38,283 nt of DNA from assembly GCA_012840125.1 (NCBI GenBank), contig DULZ01000092.1, positions 1-38,283 on the forward strand, given 5' to 3'. The stretch's first letter is position 1. The number at the start of each line of letters is the position of its first letter. Under the pieces are notes generated by a model. It ran no database searches. It was not told where the DNA came from and was given only the letters and a program-made list of their open reading frames with translations. This DNA comes from Clostridia bacterium (GTDB lineage Bacteria; Bacillota; DULZ01). A program made the translations under genes and the position numbers. Below, in pieces: positions 24,635-31,461 of this stretch.

Positions 24635-24668
24635 GAGTTAAGGTTCGTCCATGAGGAGGCGCGACAGG

Positions 24669-26408
24669 ATGCGGAGAAAAATTGCCATCGAGCTGCTGGT
24701 TATTGCCTTTCTGTTCTTAACTGTGCCCAGTTTACTGGTAGGTATTGCTAGTTACCGGGTAGCGAAAGGCGAACTGGACCAGCTGGGGGCCAGGGCCTTG
24801 CAAAACCAGGTCACCATGGCGATGCGGCTCCTGCAGGGGCTCGATTATTGTGTCCAAGAAGGGCACATGTCCCTGGCAGAGGCCCAAGAAAGGGCGAAAG
24901 CATTGCTGATCGGTGAGCAAAACCCCGACGGCACCAGGTCCATTAGCCTGAAATCAGGTTTTGGCGAAAGCGATTATTTTTACGTTTTGGATGCCCGGGG
25001 TATGATGCTCGCTCATCCCAACAGTGAGGGAGAGGATTTCTGGTTAAAACAAACCGAGGATGGGATATATTTCATCCAGGAGATCATTGCCAAGGCCCAA
25101 GGCGGGGGCGGTTTCACTTACTATGACTGGCCCTTACCCCATGACTTGTCCACCTGGGCGCCGAAAGTGGCTTACGGTGAACTAGAGCCCAACTGGGGCT
25201 GGATTGTAGTGACCGGATCCTACCTGCGTGACTTGAACAGCGGAGCTGACCGCATTCTCGATTTTATTCTCCTGGTGCTGGCCGGGTGCTTGTTGGTCGG
25301 TACCCCCTTCGTCCTGTTATTCTCCCGGCAGTTCGCCAAACCGCTGATGGAAGTCACCGATCGCCTGTCCAAGATCAGTGAAGGGGTGCTCGGTGGAGAT
25401 CCCGTGGTCGTCAAGCACAAGAATGAAATCGGTGTCATGGCCCGGGCTTTAAATCACATGGAAGGGAACCTGCGCGGTTTGGTGGCGGGTATTGTAGAAG
25501 CGGCCCGGCAAGTGGCCTCCATTAGCGAAGAAATGTCCAAGGCCTCCGAGGAAACGGGTAATGCCGCGGAAGAAATTGCCTCCGTCATTGAGGAGATTCA
25601 CTGCGGGATGGATGAGCAGCTGAGACATGTGCACAACACCCAGACGATCATCCAAGAGGTGACCGGCGGTGTATTCGTGGTGAGCGAAAGCAACAAGGAA
25701 ATCGCCGCCGCTACCGCTGAGGTATCCCGCATGGCGGCTCAGGGAGAACTCCAGCTGCAGGAGACGATGAAACAGATGGATACTATCGCCCGCGTCACCC
25801 AAGAAACCGCTGTCGCGGTAGGGCAGTTGGGAGATCATTCACGGCAGGTGGAATCCTTCCTGGCGATGATCCGGGATATTGCCGGGCAAACGAACTTACT
25901 GGCTTTGAACGCTGCCATTGAAGCGGCCAGGGCCGGTGCTGAAGGCCGCGGTTTTGCCGTGGTGGCGGATGAGGTGCGCAAGCTGGCTGACGAAAGCCAG
26001 CAGGCGGCCAATGAGATTGCCGCGGTAGTGCAGGAAATCCTGCGGCAGCTGTCGGTGACGGAGGCAGCCATCAGGGAAAGCAACCGGGAAGTCATGCGGG
26101 GGCTGGAGACCATCACCAAGACCAGGGAAGCTTTTGACGGTATCCTGGCAGCCATTCAGGCCGTTTCCCAGCGGGTAGAGGGAGCTGTGGCCGCATCCGA
26201 GAAGATCGAAGCCGGTGCCGTGCAACAGTCTGAAGCCATGGACAGCATGGTGAATATTATCACCGAGATTTCGCAAGGCATGGAGAAAGCATCCGTTTCT
26301 TCGGAAGAACAAGCCGCGGCGGTGGAGGAAATCTCCGCTTCCGCCAATGTCTTAGCCCAGACTTCCCGTAATTTGCTGTCGGCGGTAGCCAACTTTAAAA
26401 TTAAGTGA
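24669..26408 (+). CDS. Methyl-accepting chemotaxis protein with a Cache sensor
   Basis: A transmembrane chemoreceptor of 579 residues. TM1 is at about 5-25. The extracellular single Cache (sCache_2-like) domain covers about 30-190, with [15 protein letters not shown] and the [11 protein letters not shown] end. TM2 is at about 200-220, followed by HAMP (about 225-275) and a long helical signalling domain. The signalling tip that binds CheA/CheW is clear: [21 protein letters not shown], then [15 protein letters not shown]. No C-terminal CheR-docking pentapeptide is present. The start is ATG at 24669, 9 bases after AGGAGG; ATG at 24651 contains that site in its own codons. No che genes lie nearby. 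The neighbouring TRAP transporter suggests a shared ligand, which is inference. Confidence 0.94.
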
Positions 26409-26446: not shown

Positions 26447-26485
26447 ATGTAATGAATAAATATTGATTAGAGGGAAGTGCATGCC

Positions 26486-27808
26486 ATGAAACAAAAGGTC
26501 AAAGTTATCATTATGGGTGCTGCCGGTAGGGATTTTCACAATTTTAATGCCTATTTCAGGGATAATGAGAATTACGAAGTGGTGGCTTTCACGGCAACCC
26601 AGATCCCCGATATTCACGGGCGGAAATATCCGCCTGAGCTGGCCGGCAAATTGTATCCAGACGGTATTCCCATTTATGACGAAGCTGAGTTGGAGCGTCT
26701 TATTAAGGCCCATGATGTAGATCAAGTTGTTTTTGCTTACAGCGACGTCTCCAACCAGTATGTCATGGAGAAGGCCGCCCTGGTGATGGCCAGCGGCGCT
26801 GATTTCCGCCTCATGGGTCCCAAGACCACCATGCTGGAGAGCAAAGTGCCCGTGGTCGCCGTCTGTGCCGTCCGGACCGGCGTCGGCAAGAGCCAGACCA
26901 CCAGGCGCGTGGCCGGAATTTTAAGGGCCATGGGCAAGCGCGTGGTGGCGGTGCGCCATCCCATGCCCTACGGGGATTTAGCCAAGCAAGCCTGCCAGCG
27001 CTTTGCCTCCTATGAGGACCTGGATAAGCATGAATGCACCATTGAAGAGCGGGAAGAGTACGAACCTCACCTGGATAACGGCTGCGTCGTGTACGCAGGA
27101 GTTGACTACGAGCAAATCCTGCGCCAAGCGGAAGCGGAAGCGGATATCATCCTGTGGGACGGGGGGAACAACGATTTTCCTTTTTACAAGCCGGACGTCA
27201 TGATTACCCTGGTGGACCCCCACCGGCCCGGCCATGAATTGACCTATCATCCCGGGGCCACCAACCTGCGCTTGGCTGACATTGTGATTATCAATAAAAT
27301 CGAGACCAGCAATCCGGAGCATGTGGACCTGGTCAGGGCCAGTATCCAAAAGGTGAACCCCCAGGCCCTGGTGGTCGATGCCGCTTCGCCGATTTATGTG
27401 GAAAACGGTTCATGGCTGCAGGGTAAGAGAGTACTGGTGGTGGAAGACGGTCCCACTTTAACCCACGGCAGCATGGCTTACGGGGCCGGTGCCATCGGAG
27501 CGCGGAAGTTTGGAGCTAAAGAGCTAATCGATCCCAGGCCTTATGCGGTGGGCAGCATTAAGGATACTTTCGCCAAGTACAATCACTTGTCTTACATCCT
27601 GCCGGCCATGGGTTACAGCAAGATTCAACTGGAAGAACTGGAAGCTACCATTGCCGCCATTGATGCCGATGCGGTAGTGATCGGTACTCCCATTGATTTA
27701 ACTAGAGTGATCAGGATCCAGCAGCCTACGGTCAGGGTCCGGTATGAGTTACAGGAAATCGGGGAACCGAACTTGGAAGAACTGCTGAAATCCAAATTGC
27801 AGCTTTAG
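26486..27808 (+). CDS. Cyclic 2,3-diphosphoglycerate synthetase homologue (COG2403-type P-loop protein)
   Basis: A 440-residue predicted cytosolic P-loop protein. The N-terminal part (about 1-115) is Rossmann-like, with IIMGAAGRDFHNF and YSDVS. The central part is a nucleotide-binding domain with a P-loop ending in RTGVGKSQTTR (about 130-140), ILWDGGNNDFPF (a Walker B-like region) and VIINKIET. The C-terminal part contains LPAMGYS and VVIGTPIDLTRVI. In methanogens this family makes cyclic 2,3-diphosphoglycerate, a thermoprotectant and phosphate store; in bacteria the role is unproven. No 2-phosphoglycerate kinase, needed to supply the archaeal substrate, is in the window. ATG at 26486 is chosen over GTG at 26477, which overlaps the ribosome site. 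Monocistronic: own promoter and terminator. Confidence 0.85.
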   Translation: MKQKVKVIIMGAAGRDFHNFNAYFRDNENYEVVAFTATQIPDIHGRKYPPELAGKLYPDGIPIYDEAELERLIKAHDVDQVVFAYSDVSNQYVMEKAALVMASGADFRLMGPKTTMLESKVPVVAVCAVRTGVGKSQTTRRVAGILRAMGKRVVAVRHPMPYGDLAKQACQRFASYEDLDKHECTIEEREEYEPHLDNGCVVYAGVDYEQILRQAEAEADIILWDGGNNDFPFYKPDVMITLVDPHRPGHELTYHPGATNLRLADIVIINKIETSNPEHVDLVRASIQKVNPQALVVDAASPIYVENGSWLQGKRVLVVEDGPTLTHGSMAYGAGAIGARKFGAKELIDPRPYAVGSIKDTFAKYNHLSYILPAMGYSKIQLEELEATIAAIDADAVVIGTPIDLTRVIRIQQPTVRVRYELQEIGEPNLEELLKSKLQL

Positions 27809-27835
27809 TGTCCGGTATCTTTGCCGGACATTTTT
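27809..27835 (+). terminator. Intrinsic terminator after the cPGS-like gene
   Basis: Stem TGTCCGG (27809-27815) / CCGGACA (27824-27830), loop 8, followed by five T. It begins directly at the end of the stop codon. Confidence 0.88.
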
Positions 27836-27957
27836 CATTGTCCTGATGCAGGTATCGCCTCAAGGACATCGTATTTAATTTGATAGAGATAAATGTCCAA
27901 TGAATTGCAGCAGCGGGAGAGCCGCATGACAACAATGATGTGAGCCGGGAGGAAAAA

Positions 27958-29148
27958 ATGGACCTGGAGAAGCTGATCAGCCTTGGTGCTGTTAGGAAAT
28001 TTGATGAAGGAGACACCATCTTCCGGGAAGGAGATATCGTCTCCGAAATGTTCATTATTCTTTCCGGCCGGGTAGGGGTATTTCGCAGTTCCCCCGCCGG
28101 CCGGCCGGAGAAATTAATGGTCTTGCAGCAAGGAGATTTTCTGGGCGACGTGGCGGTGACAGATGATATGCCGGAGAACGTGTCCGCGATAGCAGAAAGC
28201 CAGGTGATCGCTATCAGTATCGCCAGAGAGGATTTCCCATTTTTCGTGAAGGAGATGCCGGATCTGGCCCTGTCGGTGATTAAGAGCCTGGCGGGAAAGG
28301 TGCGGCTGTTGGAGCAAAGAAGCAAGCCCGCCCCGGAGGAGAAAGGTGCTTCCGTACCGGTGGGCGATGCCCAAACGGCAGCGGGGCAAAGCTTGTCCAA
28401 GGGGGTTGCCCCAGGTTCTCTCGTGTGGCCGGAAGGGCATAAAACATATCAGATTTATGCTCCCGAGACTGACAAGCAGTATTACTACGAAAAAGAAGTG
28501 TCCTGCCCTGTGTGTGAAAGCAGTTTCAGGACTAAAATCCCCAGGATGACTAAACTGCGGTTGGAACGAAGGGATCACGATCTGAGAGAAATATACGCGG
28601 ATTTTAATCCCTTATGGTATACGATTCGTACTTGTCCTTTCTGTTATTTTAGCGAAAACTACGTCGATTTCGATAAGTATCACCGGCTGAGTAAAAATGC
28701 TTTACAACCTTATCAAGAAAAGGCAGCCCAGCTGCGGGGGCGTTTTACCCTGCCCCCTGCGGAACCCCTCGGCATCGACAGGGTCTTTGCCGGTTATTAT
28801 TTGGCTTTATATTTCAAGGATGAAGATAAAGATAATCCTTTAGCCATAGCCAAACTGTACATGTCCTTGTCCTGGCTTTACCAGGATATCGGTGATGTAG
28901 AGTGGTATGAACGTTCCTGGCAAAAGGCTTTTGCATATTACCGGGAGGCTTATTATAATAGTACGGTAAAGCTAAAGCCGGAACATGAACAGCAGTTGTC
29001 CATTATTCTAGGCGAGCTGCACCTGCGCCGGGGAGAAAGAAAGGAAGCTTTGCAGCATTTCTACCGGGCTATCCGGCGAGGGGATGGCACACCCTACTAC
29101 AACAACCTGGCCAGGGAGCGGTACATGGAAGTTAAAGAAATGGCTTAG
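27958..29148 (+). CDS. Cyclic-nucleotide-binding-fold / DUF2225 fusion protein
   Basis: A 396-residue two-part protein of unknown function. The N-terminal CNB (CRP-like) beta-roll spans about 1-115, with EGDTIFREGD, MFIILSGRVGVF and QQGDFLGDVAV. A low-complexity linker follows (about 120-160). The C-terminal DUF2225 region has two Cys pairs, CPVC and CPFC, that probably bind zinc, and helical repeats resembling TPRs to the end. There is no helix-turn-helix, so it is not a CRP-type transcription factor. The usual phosphate-binding Glu and Arg of cAMP pockets are not conserved (LGD and PENVSA instead), so the ligand may differ or be absent. Start ATG 27958 follows GGGAGG; GTG at 27940 is less likely. 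No nucleotide cyclase is nearby. Confidence 0.82.
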   Translation: MDLEKLISLGAVRKFDEGDTIFREGDIVSEMFIILSGRVGVFRSSPAGRPEKLMVLQQGDFLGDVAVTDDMPENVSAIAESQVIAISIAREDFPFFVKEMPDLALSVIKSLAGKVRLLEQRSKPAPEEKGASVPVGDAQTAAGQSLSKGVAPGSLVWPEGHKTYQIYAPETDKQYYYEKEVSCPVCESSFRTKIPRMTKLRLERRDHDLREIYADFNPLWYTIRTCPFCYFSENYVDFDKYHRLSKNALQPYQEKAAQLRGRFTLPPAEPLGIDRVFAGYYLALYFKDEDKDNPLAIAKLYMSLSWLYQDIGDVEWYERSWQKAFAYYREAYYNSTVKLKPEHEQQLSIILGELHLRRGERKEALQHFYRAIRRGDGTPYYNNLARERYMEVKEMA

Positions 29149-29198: not shown

Positions 29199-29241
29199 AT
29201 AATTGTAATTATTATATTGAAATCTCTAAGGAGGGGTGGCG

Positions 29242-31461
29242 ATGGAACACAGGGCCGCCTATGCCCAAGTTGTGGTAGAAATCGCTGACCGGAAAGTTGA
29301 CCGCCCCTTCCATTATTATATTCCTCCCGAGTTGAAAGAAGCCGTGCAGCCGGGGGTGCGAGTCCTGGTACCCTTTGGACACCGGCAGTTGGAAGGATAT
29401 GTAATCGGCCTTGCGGATCAAGCGGATGTATCCGAAGTGAAGCCTATTTTGGCAGTGGTAGAAGGGGAACTTTCCATCCAACCGGAACTGCTGCGGCTGG
29501 CTCGCTGGATGGCTGTTTATTACATGTGTCCCCTGGTCACGGTCCTGCAAGCTTTTTTCCCGCGGGGAAAGAGAACTAAGCAAAAGGAACTATGGTGTTA
29601 TTTAGAACCCTCCGCCACCGTGGAACAACTGGGCTTGGCGAAAAAGAGGGCACCGAAGCAAGGGGCTATCATAGACATCTTGCAGCAGTTTGGCTCTTTA
29701 CCGGTGGGACAGGTCCTGAAGCTGGCGGACGCGGACCGGCGCAGTTTAATGTCCCTGGTGGATAAAGGGGTAGTGGTCATCCGGGAGGCAGAGGCGGCAG
29801 CCCCTGCCCAGGAGGAAGTGCCGGAAAAGCCGCCCAGGCTGACCGCGGCACAGGCCCGGGTGATGGAAGAGATCCGGCCGAAGTTGGTCCCCCCCCAGTA
29901 CGAAGTTTTTCTGTTGCACGGGGTAACCGGCAGCGGTAAAACGGAAATCTACTTGCAGAGTTTGGCTCAAGCGGTGGAGGCAGGTTACCAGGGCATTGTC
30001 CTATTTCCGGAGATTTCCCTGACCACGCACCTGGTGGAGCGGTTTTACCGCCGTTTCGGCCGGCAGGTGGCTGTTTTACATAGCGGCTTGTCTGTAGGGG
30101 AGAGGCTGGCCACTTTAGACCGGATAAGCTCTGGGCAAGTGCCCGTCGTCGTAGGAACCAGGTCGGCGGTTTTTGCCCCGGCCCCTAAACTGGGATTGAT
30201 TATCCTGGATGAGGAACATGAAACCAGTTACCGGCAAGAGGCAGTGCCCAAGTATCATGCCCGGGAAGTAGCCATTGCCAGGGCCTTTATTCATAAAATC
30301 CCCGTGATCCTGGGCAGTGCCACTCCTTCGTTGGAAAGCTATCATCGAGCCAGGCAGGGAAAATACAAGCTCCTGGTGATGGAAGAACGAGTGGAACAAA
30401 AACACCTACCTCAGGTCCTGGTAACGGACATGCGGTCCGAATTAAAAGAAGGTAATGCAAGTGTGTTCGGCAAGCTGCTGCAGGAAAAGCTGCAGGAACG
30501 CTTGGAGAGCAAGGAACAGGCCATTCTCTTTTTGAACCGGAGAGGATATGCCAATTTATTTCACTGCCGGGATTGCGGCCAAGTGATTAAATGTGCCAGG
30601 TGTGATGTCTCTTTAACCTATTACGCCAAGCAGCATTGCCTGAAGTGCCATTACTGCGGTTATGTGCGTCCCGTGCCGGCGGCATGCCCGGTTTGCGGCA
30701 GCTCCAGGGTCAGACCCTTAGGGGCAGGGACGGAGAAGGTGGAACAAGAGCTGCGGCGCTTGTTTCCTGAGGCTAAAGTGGTCAGGCTTGACAGTGATAC
30801 CGTTGGTCGCAAAGGCGATTATTACCGGTTATGGGAAATGTTTCAAAGACGGGAAGCGGATGTGATGATCGGCACCCAGATGGTAGCCAAGGGCTTGGAT
30901 TTTCCCGGGGTGACACTGGTAGGAGTGATCCTGGCGGACCAGATGTTGAATTTCCCGGACTTTCGTGCCAGGGAGAGGACTTTTCAGCTCCTGACCCAGG
31001 TGGCCGGCCGCGCCGGGCGAGGCAGCCGGCCGGGAGAAGTGGTGATCCAAACCTACGTCCCGGAAGACCCTACGATTCAAGCTGTGGTGCGGCACAATTA
31101 CCGGGAGTTTTTTGCGCAAGAGGTTCACTTGCGCCAGCTCCTGAACTACCCGCCTTTCAGCCATATCCTGCGCATTCTGGTCCTTGGGCCTGACGAGGAA
31201 ATGTGTGAAACCGGTAGTAAAGAAATTGCCGACCAAATAAACTATTACCGGGGAGCGGTAGATGTAACCTTATTTGGCCCGGCCCCGGCACCTGTGACGA
31301 AGATCAACAATGTCTATCGCTGGCAGTTGCTGTTGAAAGGTTTGGATTTAAAGAAAATGCGGCACCTGGTCGGCGCGTCCTTACGGGAAGTGGCGACCAA
31401 AGGGCGGCTGCCCAGGGGATTACGGATTAACCTGGATGTGGATCCTTTGGGCATGTTGTAA
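29242..31461 (+). CDS. priA: Primosomal helicase PriA
   Basis: A 3'-5' DNA helicase that recognises stalled forks and reloads the replisome. The 739-residue product has the PriA N-terminal DNA-binding domain (RPFHYYIP), Walker A GVTGSGKTE (about 230-238) and the DEEH box in LIILDEEHETSY. The zinc-binding insertion has eight Cys in four CxxC pairs (CRDC, CARC, CHYC, CPVC), and the C-terminal helicase motifs include GTQMVAKGLDFP and QVAGRAGRG. The start is ATG at 29242, 7 bases after AGGAGG; GTG at 29236 is too close to it. It is first gene of priA-def-fmt-DUF116-peptidase-rsmB-rlmN, the order known in Bacillota. Confidence 0.97.
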   Translation: MEHRAAYAQVVVEIADRKVDRPFHYYIPPELKEAVQPGVRVLVPFGHRQLEGYVIGLADQADVSEVKPILAVVEGELSIQPELLRLARWMAVYYMCPLVTVLQAFFPRGKRTKQKELWCYLEPSATVEQLGLAKKRAPKQGAIIDILQQFGSLPVGQVLKLADADRRSLMSLVDKGVVVIREAEAAAPAQEEVPEKPPRLTAAQARVMEEIRPKLVPPQYEVFLLHGVTGSGKTEIYLQSLAQAVEAGYQGIVLFPEISLTTHLVERFYRRFGRQVAVLHSGLSVGERLATLDRISSGQVPVVVGTRSAVFAPAPKLGLIILDEEHETSYRQEAVPKYHAREVAIARAFIHKIPVILGSATPSLESYHRARQGKYKLLVMEERVEQKHLPQVLVTDMRSELKEGNASVFGKLLQEKLQERLESKEQAILFLNRRGYANLFHCRDCGQVIKCARCDVSLTYYAKQHCLKCHYCGYVRPVPAACPVCGSSRVRPLGAGTEKVEQELRRLFPEAKVVRLDSDTVGRKGDYYRLWEMFQRREADVMIGTQMVAKGLDFPGVTLVGVILADQMLNFPDFRARERTFQLLTQVAGRAGRGSRPGEVVIQTYVPEDPTIQAVVRHNYREFFAQEVHLRQLLNYPPFSHILRILVLGPDEEMCETGSKEIADQINYYRGAVDVTLFGPAPAPVTKINNVYRWQLLLKGLDLKKMRHLVGASLREVATKGRLPRGLRINLDVDPLGML

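Follow-up and report, generated by a model that had tools for sequence, protein, structure and literature searches.

Computational analysis of the window, the whole stretch of 38,283 nucleotides from a Clostridia bacterium contig (DULZ01000092.1) considered here, reveals a gene that fuses a cyclic-nucleotide-binding (CNB) domain to DUF2225; its nucleotide pocket is altered, a paralogue in the same genome has an intact pocket, and among genomes encoding such fusions an intact pocket goes with the presence of a class III cyclase. DUF2225 itself is linked to flagellar genomes. We propose that CNB-DUF2225 proteins may be non-transcriptional effectors in which the CNB domain would subject the DUF2225 output, with its putative role in flagellar motility, to control by cAMP from class III cyclases, and that the window copy is most likely, to judge from its sequence, a pocket-dead, cyclic-nucleotide-blind paralogue near a chemoreceptor gene. 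We put the chances that this whole account is right, with cAMP-controlled motility factors and a blind paralogue among them, at about even.

Domain organization of the CNB-DUF2225 protein

The features of the gene and its product are as follows.

27958..29148, + strand: CNB-DUF2225 gene, 396 aa (open reading frame and Pfam)
27994..28239, + strand: CNB domain (PF00027, E 5e-19; same coordinates from the genome search)
28144..28185, + strand: altered phosphate-binding cassette, GDVAVTDDMPENVS (family majority GEMSLLExxPRSAT; fusion alignment)
28315..28428, + strand: variable linker between CNB and DUF2225, with no helix-turn-helix (Pfam; identity comparison)
28483..29127, + strand: DUF2225 domain (PF09986, E 4e-40)
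28504..28515, + strand: first Cys pair, CPVC (sequence; conservation)
28633..28644, + strand: second Cys pair, CPFC (sequence; conservation)
28876..29076, + strand: TPR-like helical part of DUF2225 (TPR_12 below cut-off; helices in a low-confidence model)

A Shine-Dalgarno-like GGGAGG sits just 5' of the ATG at 27958, and this start, the one chosen in the first-pass annotation, is therefore preferred over the mechanically listed GTG at 27940. The Pfam assignments are well above their curated cut-offs, with the cNMP_binding model (PF00027) covering residues 13-94 of 396 at 68.4 bits (cut-off 27.5) and DUF2225 covering residues 176-390 at 138.4 bits (cut-off 21). CPVC and CPFC occupy residues 183-186 and 226-229, and among 122 distinct DUF2225 proteins 119-121 keep each of these four cysteines; the fusion had been described from the letters alone with these two motifs, and both Pfam models and the sequence bear the description out. 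A TPR_12 match in the window protein (E 1.5e-5, 25.5 bits) is under the curated cut-off of 30.1, and an AlphaFold model built from three sequences is of low confidence (pLDDT 50). We regard DUF2225 as a four-Cys module, probably of zinc type, with TPR-like helices. Pfam finds no helix-turn-helix family in the window protein at E values up to 10 and no DNA-binding domain, in agreement with the earlier remark that one is absent, and the linker is only 5-16% identical to those of the paralogue and two relatives (G001 and G002).

Regulators of the Crp/Fnr type share the N-terminal CNB domain, and the CNB domain of the fusion matches solved members in sequence; the fusion differs in having DUF2225 instead of a C-terminal helix-turn-helix, and the window pocket in having neither the Glu nor the Arg. 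The CNB domain is likewise joined to a non-transcriptional module in cGMP-dependent kinases, Epac and the family 2B encapsulin, none of which is known to carry DUF2225.

A family of CNB-DUF2225 fusions

The fusion is a family and not a single oddity of the window genome. DUF2225 is present in 120 of the 299 genomes of a first sample, and CNB fusions, 28 in all, occur in 27 of the 120. That search covered DUF2225 regions with frames of at least 300 aa, plus a few shorter ones, with one exclusion (G052, of the same genus as G006); frames below 300 aa were mostly skipped because they are too short for both domains. Later draws, comprising a class sample of 63 genomes and a larger phylum draw of 397 genomes that mostly overlaps the first sample, add at least 19 fusion genomes; several short, broken or second matches in the class sample were left out (e.g. 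G305, G307 and G299). All 46 aligned fusions, 46 genes from 45 genomes, match both Pfam models. The fusion of G322, which is cut by a contig end, was kept out of the alignment and tree and is still counted in the cyclase table. A contig scan with both paralogues of the window genome as queries gave 61 loci, two of them full-length (L003 and L004, which are the contigs of L151 and L152) and the remaining 59 with matches inside query residues 1-162, the CNB part; most of these 59 went into building a CNB profile. Two DUF2225 proteins of 372-393 aa (L134 and L136, in the f29 genomes G030 and G294) have no match to this CNB profile.

Several neighbours of the fusions recur, namely leuS, SLBB/HHH, ABC transporter, YchF, pseudouridine synthase and CO dehydrogenase genes, and these we judge to be positional. 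We also observe that a protein of 717-723 aa is encoded directly downstream of the fusion in G251 and G275 (L122:7875-10046; L128:2056-4209), its L122 member having FtsA/PilM-like and ThiS/Mut7-C ubiquitin-like matches. In six loci (L106, L108, L109, L115, L117 and L147) one gene cluster, c8, recurs only a few genes away from DUF2225, and in five of them the DUF2225 protein has no CNB domain; the c8 member in L108 is a GGDEF protein. In G373 a GAF/HD-domain gene (L240:7122-8633) overlaps the end of a non-canonical fusion gene.

An altered pocket and an intact paralogue

In the phosphate-binding cassette of the window protein the Glu is replaced by Asp64 and the Arg by Glu73 (numbered from the ATG), which confirms the earlier reading that both pocket residues are missing; across the 46 fusions the same positions hold Glu in 35 and Arg in 37. 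The cassette length and the CNB domain are retained. Two DUF2225 genes, each fused to a CNB domain, are present in the window genome (G000, 97% complete), and the second, on contig C78 (L157), encodes a protein 54% identical to the window protein with the pocket intact, FGEMAMLDNLPRSASG. The Glu and Arg of a phosphate cassette for cAMP or cGMP are present in the paralogue and absent from the window copy. We note that the paralogue gene adjoins a gene of the CO dehydrogenase family (Prismane) on the same strand.

A single fusion copy, with a canonical pocket, is present in each of the family relatives, G001 and G002. Between the window copy and these two copies or the paralogue the CNB domains are 43-48% identical, compared with 82-91% among those three; the corresponding values for DUF2225 are 62-70% and 77-87%. 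The greatest change in the window copy, as read from these identities, is in the CNB domain rather than in the DUF2225 output, and in each of the two trees this copy falls outside the paralogue and the G001 and G002 copies. Given the divergence of its CNB domain and the reversal of charge at its phosphate site, the window copy is most likely blind to cyclic nucleotides, and Glu73, at the position of the Arg that would bind the phosphate, speaks against a cyclic phosphate of any kind as its ligand. The first-pass annotation had suggested a ligand other than cAMP; this is possible for the window copy, but the commoner state of the family is a canonical pocket of the cAMP/cGMP type (26/46). With DUF2225 well kept behind a diverged sensor, the window copy may be constitutively active, or may pair or compete with the canonical C78 copy, and it perhaps acts with the chemoreceptor encoded nearby. 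A pocket-dead copy and an intact paralogue in one genome constitute a natural control.

Pocket state and class III cyclases

A pocket was called canonical if it contained GE and the Arg followed by [STA][ACGS], a rule made on the first 27 fusion genomes after seeing them; by this rule the pocket is canonical in 26 of 46 fusion genomes and non-canonical in 20. Class III cyclases (PF00211) are present in 11/27 fusion genomes versus 38/272 others (p = 0.0013), and DUF2225 without a CNB domain shows no such link (13/93 vs 36/206, p = 0.50). Within the first set of fusion genomes the cyclase is found in 10/12 with a canonical pocket and 1/15 of the rest (p = 8e-5), or by genus in 8/9 and 1/10. Among the 19 later fusion genomes the counts over the cut-off are 13/14 and 0/5 (p = 5e-4; p = 0.006 if G412, one of those five, is counted for its sub-threshold match). 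Three of these 19 belong to genera already represented in the first set, and in the new genera alone the cyclase is present in 6/7 versus 0/4 (p = 0.015). A plain Glu-plus-Arg rule gives a weaker association (first set 10/19 vs 1/8, p = 0.09; later genomes 13/15 vs 0/4, p = 0.004), and a strict PROSITE-like rule gives 7/9 versus 4/18 in the first set (p = 0.011). Strong cyclase matches alone occur in 20/26 canonical and 1/20 other genomes. On a tree of DUF2225 only, from which the CNB columns were omitted and in which the window copy was included, a model of dependent evolution of pocket and cyclase is preferred to the independent one (LR 22.7, 4 df, p = 1.5e-4).

There are exceptions in both directions. 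No cyclase was found in three genomes with a canonical pocket, G001 and G002 (metagenome-assembled genomes, 81% and 93% complete) and G348 (88% complete), and G029 has a non-canonical pocket yet a cyclase fragment; some other cyclase matches are weak or broken, namely those of G089, which also has a SMODS domain, of G322, and of G335, which is split into two pieces. Among non-fusion genomes in the class of G017, cyclases are present in 7 of 46. The presence of a class III cyclase nonetheless tracks an intact pocket among fusion genomes, and the canonical members may, on the sequence of their pockets, bind cAMP, the pocket having been mostly altered, we suggest, in lineages without the cyclase.

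CNB folds often dimerise through their C-helix, and the CNB domain of the family could be a dimerisation or scaffold module only, with the pocket-cyclase link reflecting lineage. The 20 of 46 fusion genomes whose pocket is non-canonical would fit such a role; we nevertheless consider it unlikely, as the link holds both on the tree made without CNB columns and in genomes outside the set on which the rule was made. We favour instead a CNB domain that, in canonical members, would respond to cAMP.

Twelve cyclase regions were fetched from fusion genomes and ten of the proteins were scanned: six have CHASE2 domains (G000, G017, G284, G298, G124 and G258), two HAMP, one GAF and one SMODS. Of the 46 fusion loci, one has a cyclase gene next to the fusion; this is the locus of G146, where a further gene of the CHASE2-cyclase type, on the strand of the fusion, immediately precedes it. 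The CHASE2-cyclase of the window genome aligns with solved class III cyclases, the Lys of its LDKYLGDG motif corresponding to the Lys of the adenylate cyclase CyaB and presumably marking ATP as the substrate. The G089 protein (L186:1299-3218, - strand) is a single frame of 640 aa with a class III cyclase domain at 36-181 and a SMODS nucleotidyltransferase domain at 356-504.

DUF2225 and flagellar motility

FliG_C is found in 117/120 genomes with DUF2225 versus 130/179 without (p = 2e-9, kinship ignored), the three exceptions (G283, G270 and G002) being metagenome-assembled genomes 61-93% complete. A replicate sample of 80 later genomes (G352-G431) gives 29/29 versus 36/51 (p = 7e-4, kinship ignored), and the overall counts are 146/149 and 166/230, again with kinship ignored. 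For the fusions alone the figures are 26/27 versus 221/272 (p = 0.06). In the f64 genomes G084 and G227 the fusion is near, and divergent from, flgB-flgC-fliE-fliF, with one gene between them in L105 and four in L124. A chemoreceptor (MCP) gene is beside or near the fusion in 8/28 loci of the first set and 0/18 later loci; the eight are those of the window, G001, G002 and three f55 genomes, in which the MCP gene is directly upstream of the fusion as in G001 and G002, and, at some distance, of two f111 genomes.

PMC12236494 describes a mutant of the DUF2225 gene LEPBIa0550 (OG8135) of Leptospira biflexa with a motility defect and no growth defect, partly complemented, so that the protein is needed for normal motility. 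LEPBIa0550 belongs to another phylum, and its assignment to the DUF2225 family is that of the preprint; the text of PMC12236494 contains neither 'cyclic nucleotide' nor 'CNB'. In the portions of the literature searched this preprint is the only report on DUF2225 function, and the motility role is drawn from it; a search under COG1655/PF09986 found nothing.

DUF2225 may still have no flagellar role in Bacillota, and genome size and lineage may account for its association with FliG. Flagella are common in the sample anyway (FliG in 247/299), class III cyclases are likewise associated with FliG (47/49 vs 200/250, p = 0.006), and FlgB/FlgC/FliE/FliF genes are near DUF2225 in only two of the loci fetched, both among the 46 fusion loci. 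The excess of FliG in DUF2225 genomes, the flagellar operon near the f64 fusions and the Leptospira mutant (PMC12236494) speak against such an origin of the association, as does a comparison gene, the cPGS-like gene described below, which shows no FliG association (71/88 vs 176/211). We regard the lack of a flagellar role as somewhat unlikely, and prefer a DUF2225 that would affect motility in Bacillota.

Intact-pocket relatives together with a flagella-linked DUF2225 thus point to a putative direct route from cAMP to swimming. PilZ-type flagellar brakes (YcgR) exert direct second-messenger control of motility, as proposed for the fusion, although they differ in messenger, domain and phylum and provide an analogy only. 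Among the literature titles seen on CNB domains, class III adenylate cyclases and flagellar motility, none concerns a bacterial effector of the CNB-DUF2225 kind. Should the canonical members bind cAMP and influence motility, they would give bacterial swimming a direct cAMP input, and DUF2225, a widespread domain of little-known role, a first mechanism. We advance more tentatively, as somewhat short of an even chance, the general proposition that an unrecognised family provides a direct link, independent of transcription, between cAMP made by class III cyclases, many of them of the CHASE2 type, and flagellar motility or chemotaxis in Bacillota, with some lineages, that of the window among them, keeping pocket-dead, cAMP-blind members tied to chemoreceptors.

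The genes around the window copy

The fusion gene of the window is flanked by the following features.

24651..26408, + strand: chemoreceptor MCP (sCache_2, HAMP, MCPsignal; Pfam, locus comparison)
26477..27808, + strand: cPGS-like P-loop gene, between the MCP gene and the fusion (Pfam, structure-sequence matches, locus comparison)
27807..27840, + strand: intrinsic-terminator-like hairpin and T tract, 3' of the cPGS-like gene (-17.7 kcal/mol, z -4.3)
29236..31461, + strand: priA, downstream of the fusion (Pfam; same in relative G002)

In both G001 and G002 the MCP gene is directly upstream of the fusion with no cPGS-like gene between, and the MCP/CNB-DUF2225 pair is thus an arrangement common to the window family. 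Downstream of its fusion G002 has the priA run that the window also shows, and the contig of G001 ends there. Of these three genomes only the window genome has the cPGS-like gene separating the pair; in the other two it is on a different contig from the fusion.

This setting bears on whether the window copy could be a duplicate in decay and heading for loss. Its CNB domain is more diverged than its DUF2225 domain, as decay might produce, but the frame is full-length and has a ribosome-binding-like site, the cysteines and DUF2225 are conserved, and so is its place between the MCP gene and priA, all of which make decay very improbable. A retained, nucleotide-blind paralogue agrees better with these features.

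The fusion does lie directly after the cPGS-like gene, as first noted, with a gap of 149 bp, and a cyclic phosphate metabolite such as cDPG had been suggested on that ground as its ligand. The cPGS-like gene matches 91 of the 299 sampled genomes at E 0.001, and 88 entered the co-occurrence table, three weak matches being excluded (G024, G038 and the fusion genome G298). It shows no co-occurrence with the fusion (7/27 fusion genomes vs 81/272 others, p = 0.83) and is rarer in DUF2225 genomes than in the rest (22/120 vs 66/179). It is next to the fusion in 1 of 46 fetched fusion loci, that of the window, some loci being cut by contig ends. According to PMC10690619, cDPG is exclusive to hyperthermophilic methanogens.

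A window CNB domain that has changed specificity to sense another small molecule, for example a cyclic phosphate such as cDPG, would be consistent with an intact protein, with the preserved domain and cassette length, and with the position of the gene after the cPGS-like one. We find this quite improbable given the Glu at the phosphate-Arg position, the lack of both co-occurrence and conserved adjacency, the terminator-like hairpin between the two genes and the restriction of cDPG reported in PMC10690619. The more specific partnership of the fusion with cPGS and cDPG we reject on the grounds of co-occurrence, adjacency, the hairpin and the separate location of the gene in G001 and G002, and we count the cPGS-like gene as outside the CNB-DUF2225 system. 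It resembles solved cPGS weakly and over partial length (9sxb, E 1e-5; 8ork, E 0.0016), and it is widespread in the phylum sample, with examples at 26477-27808 in the window, L189:5078-6394 and L190:3342-4658.
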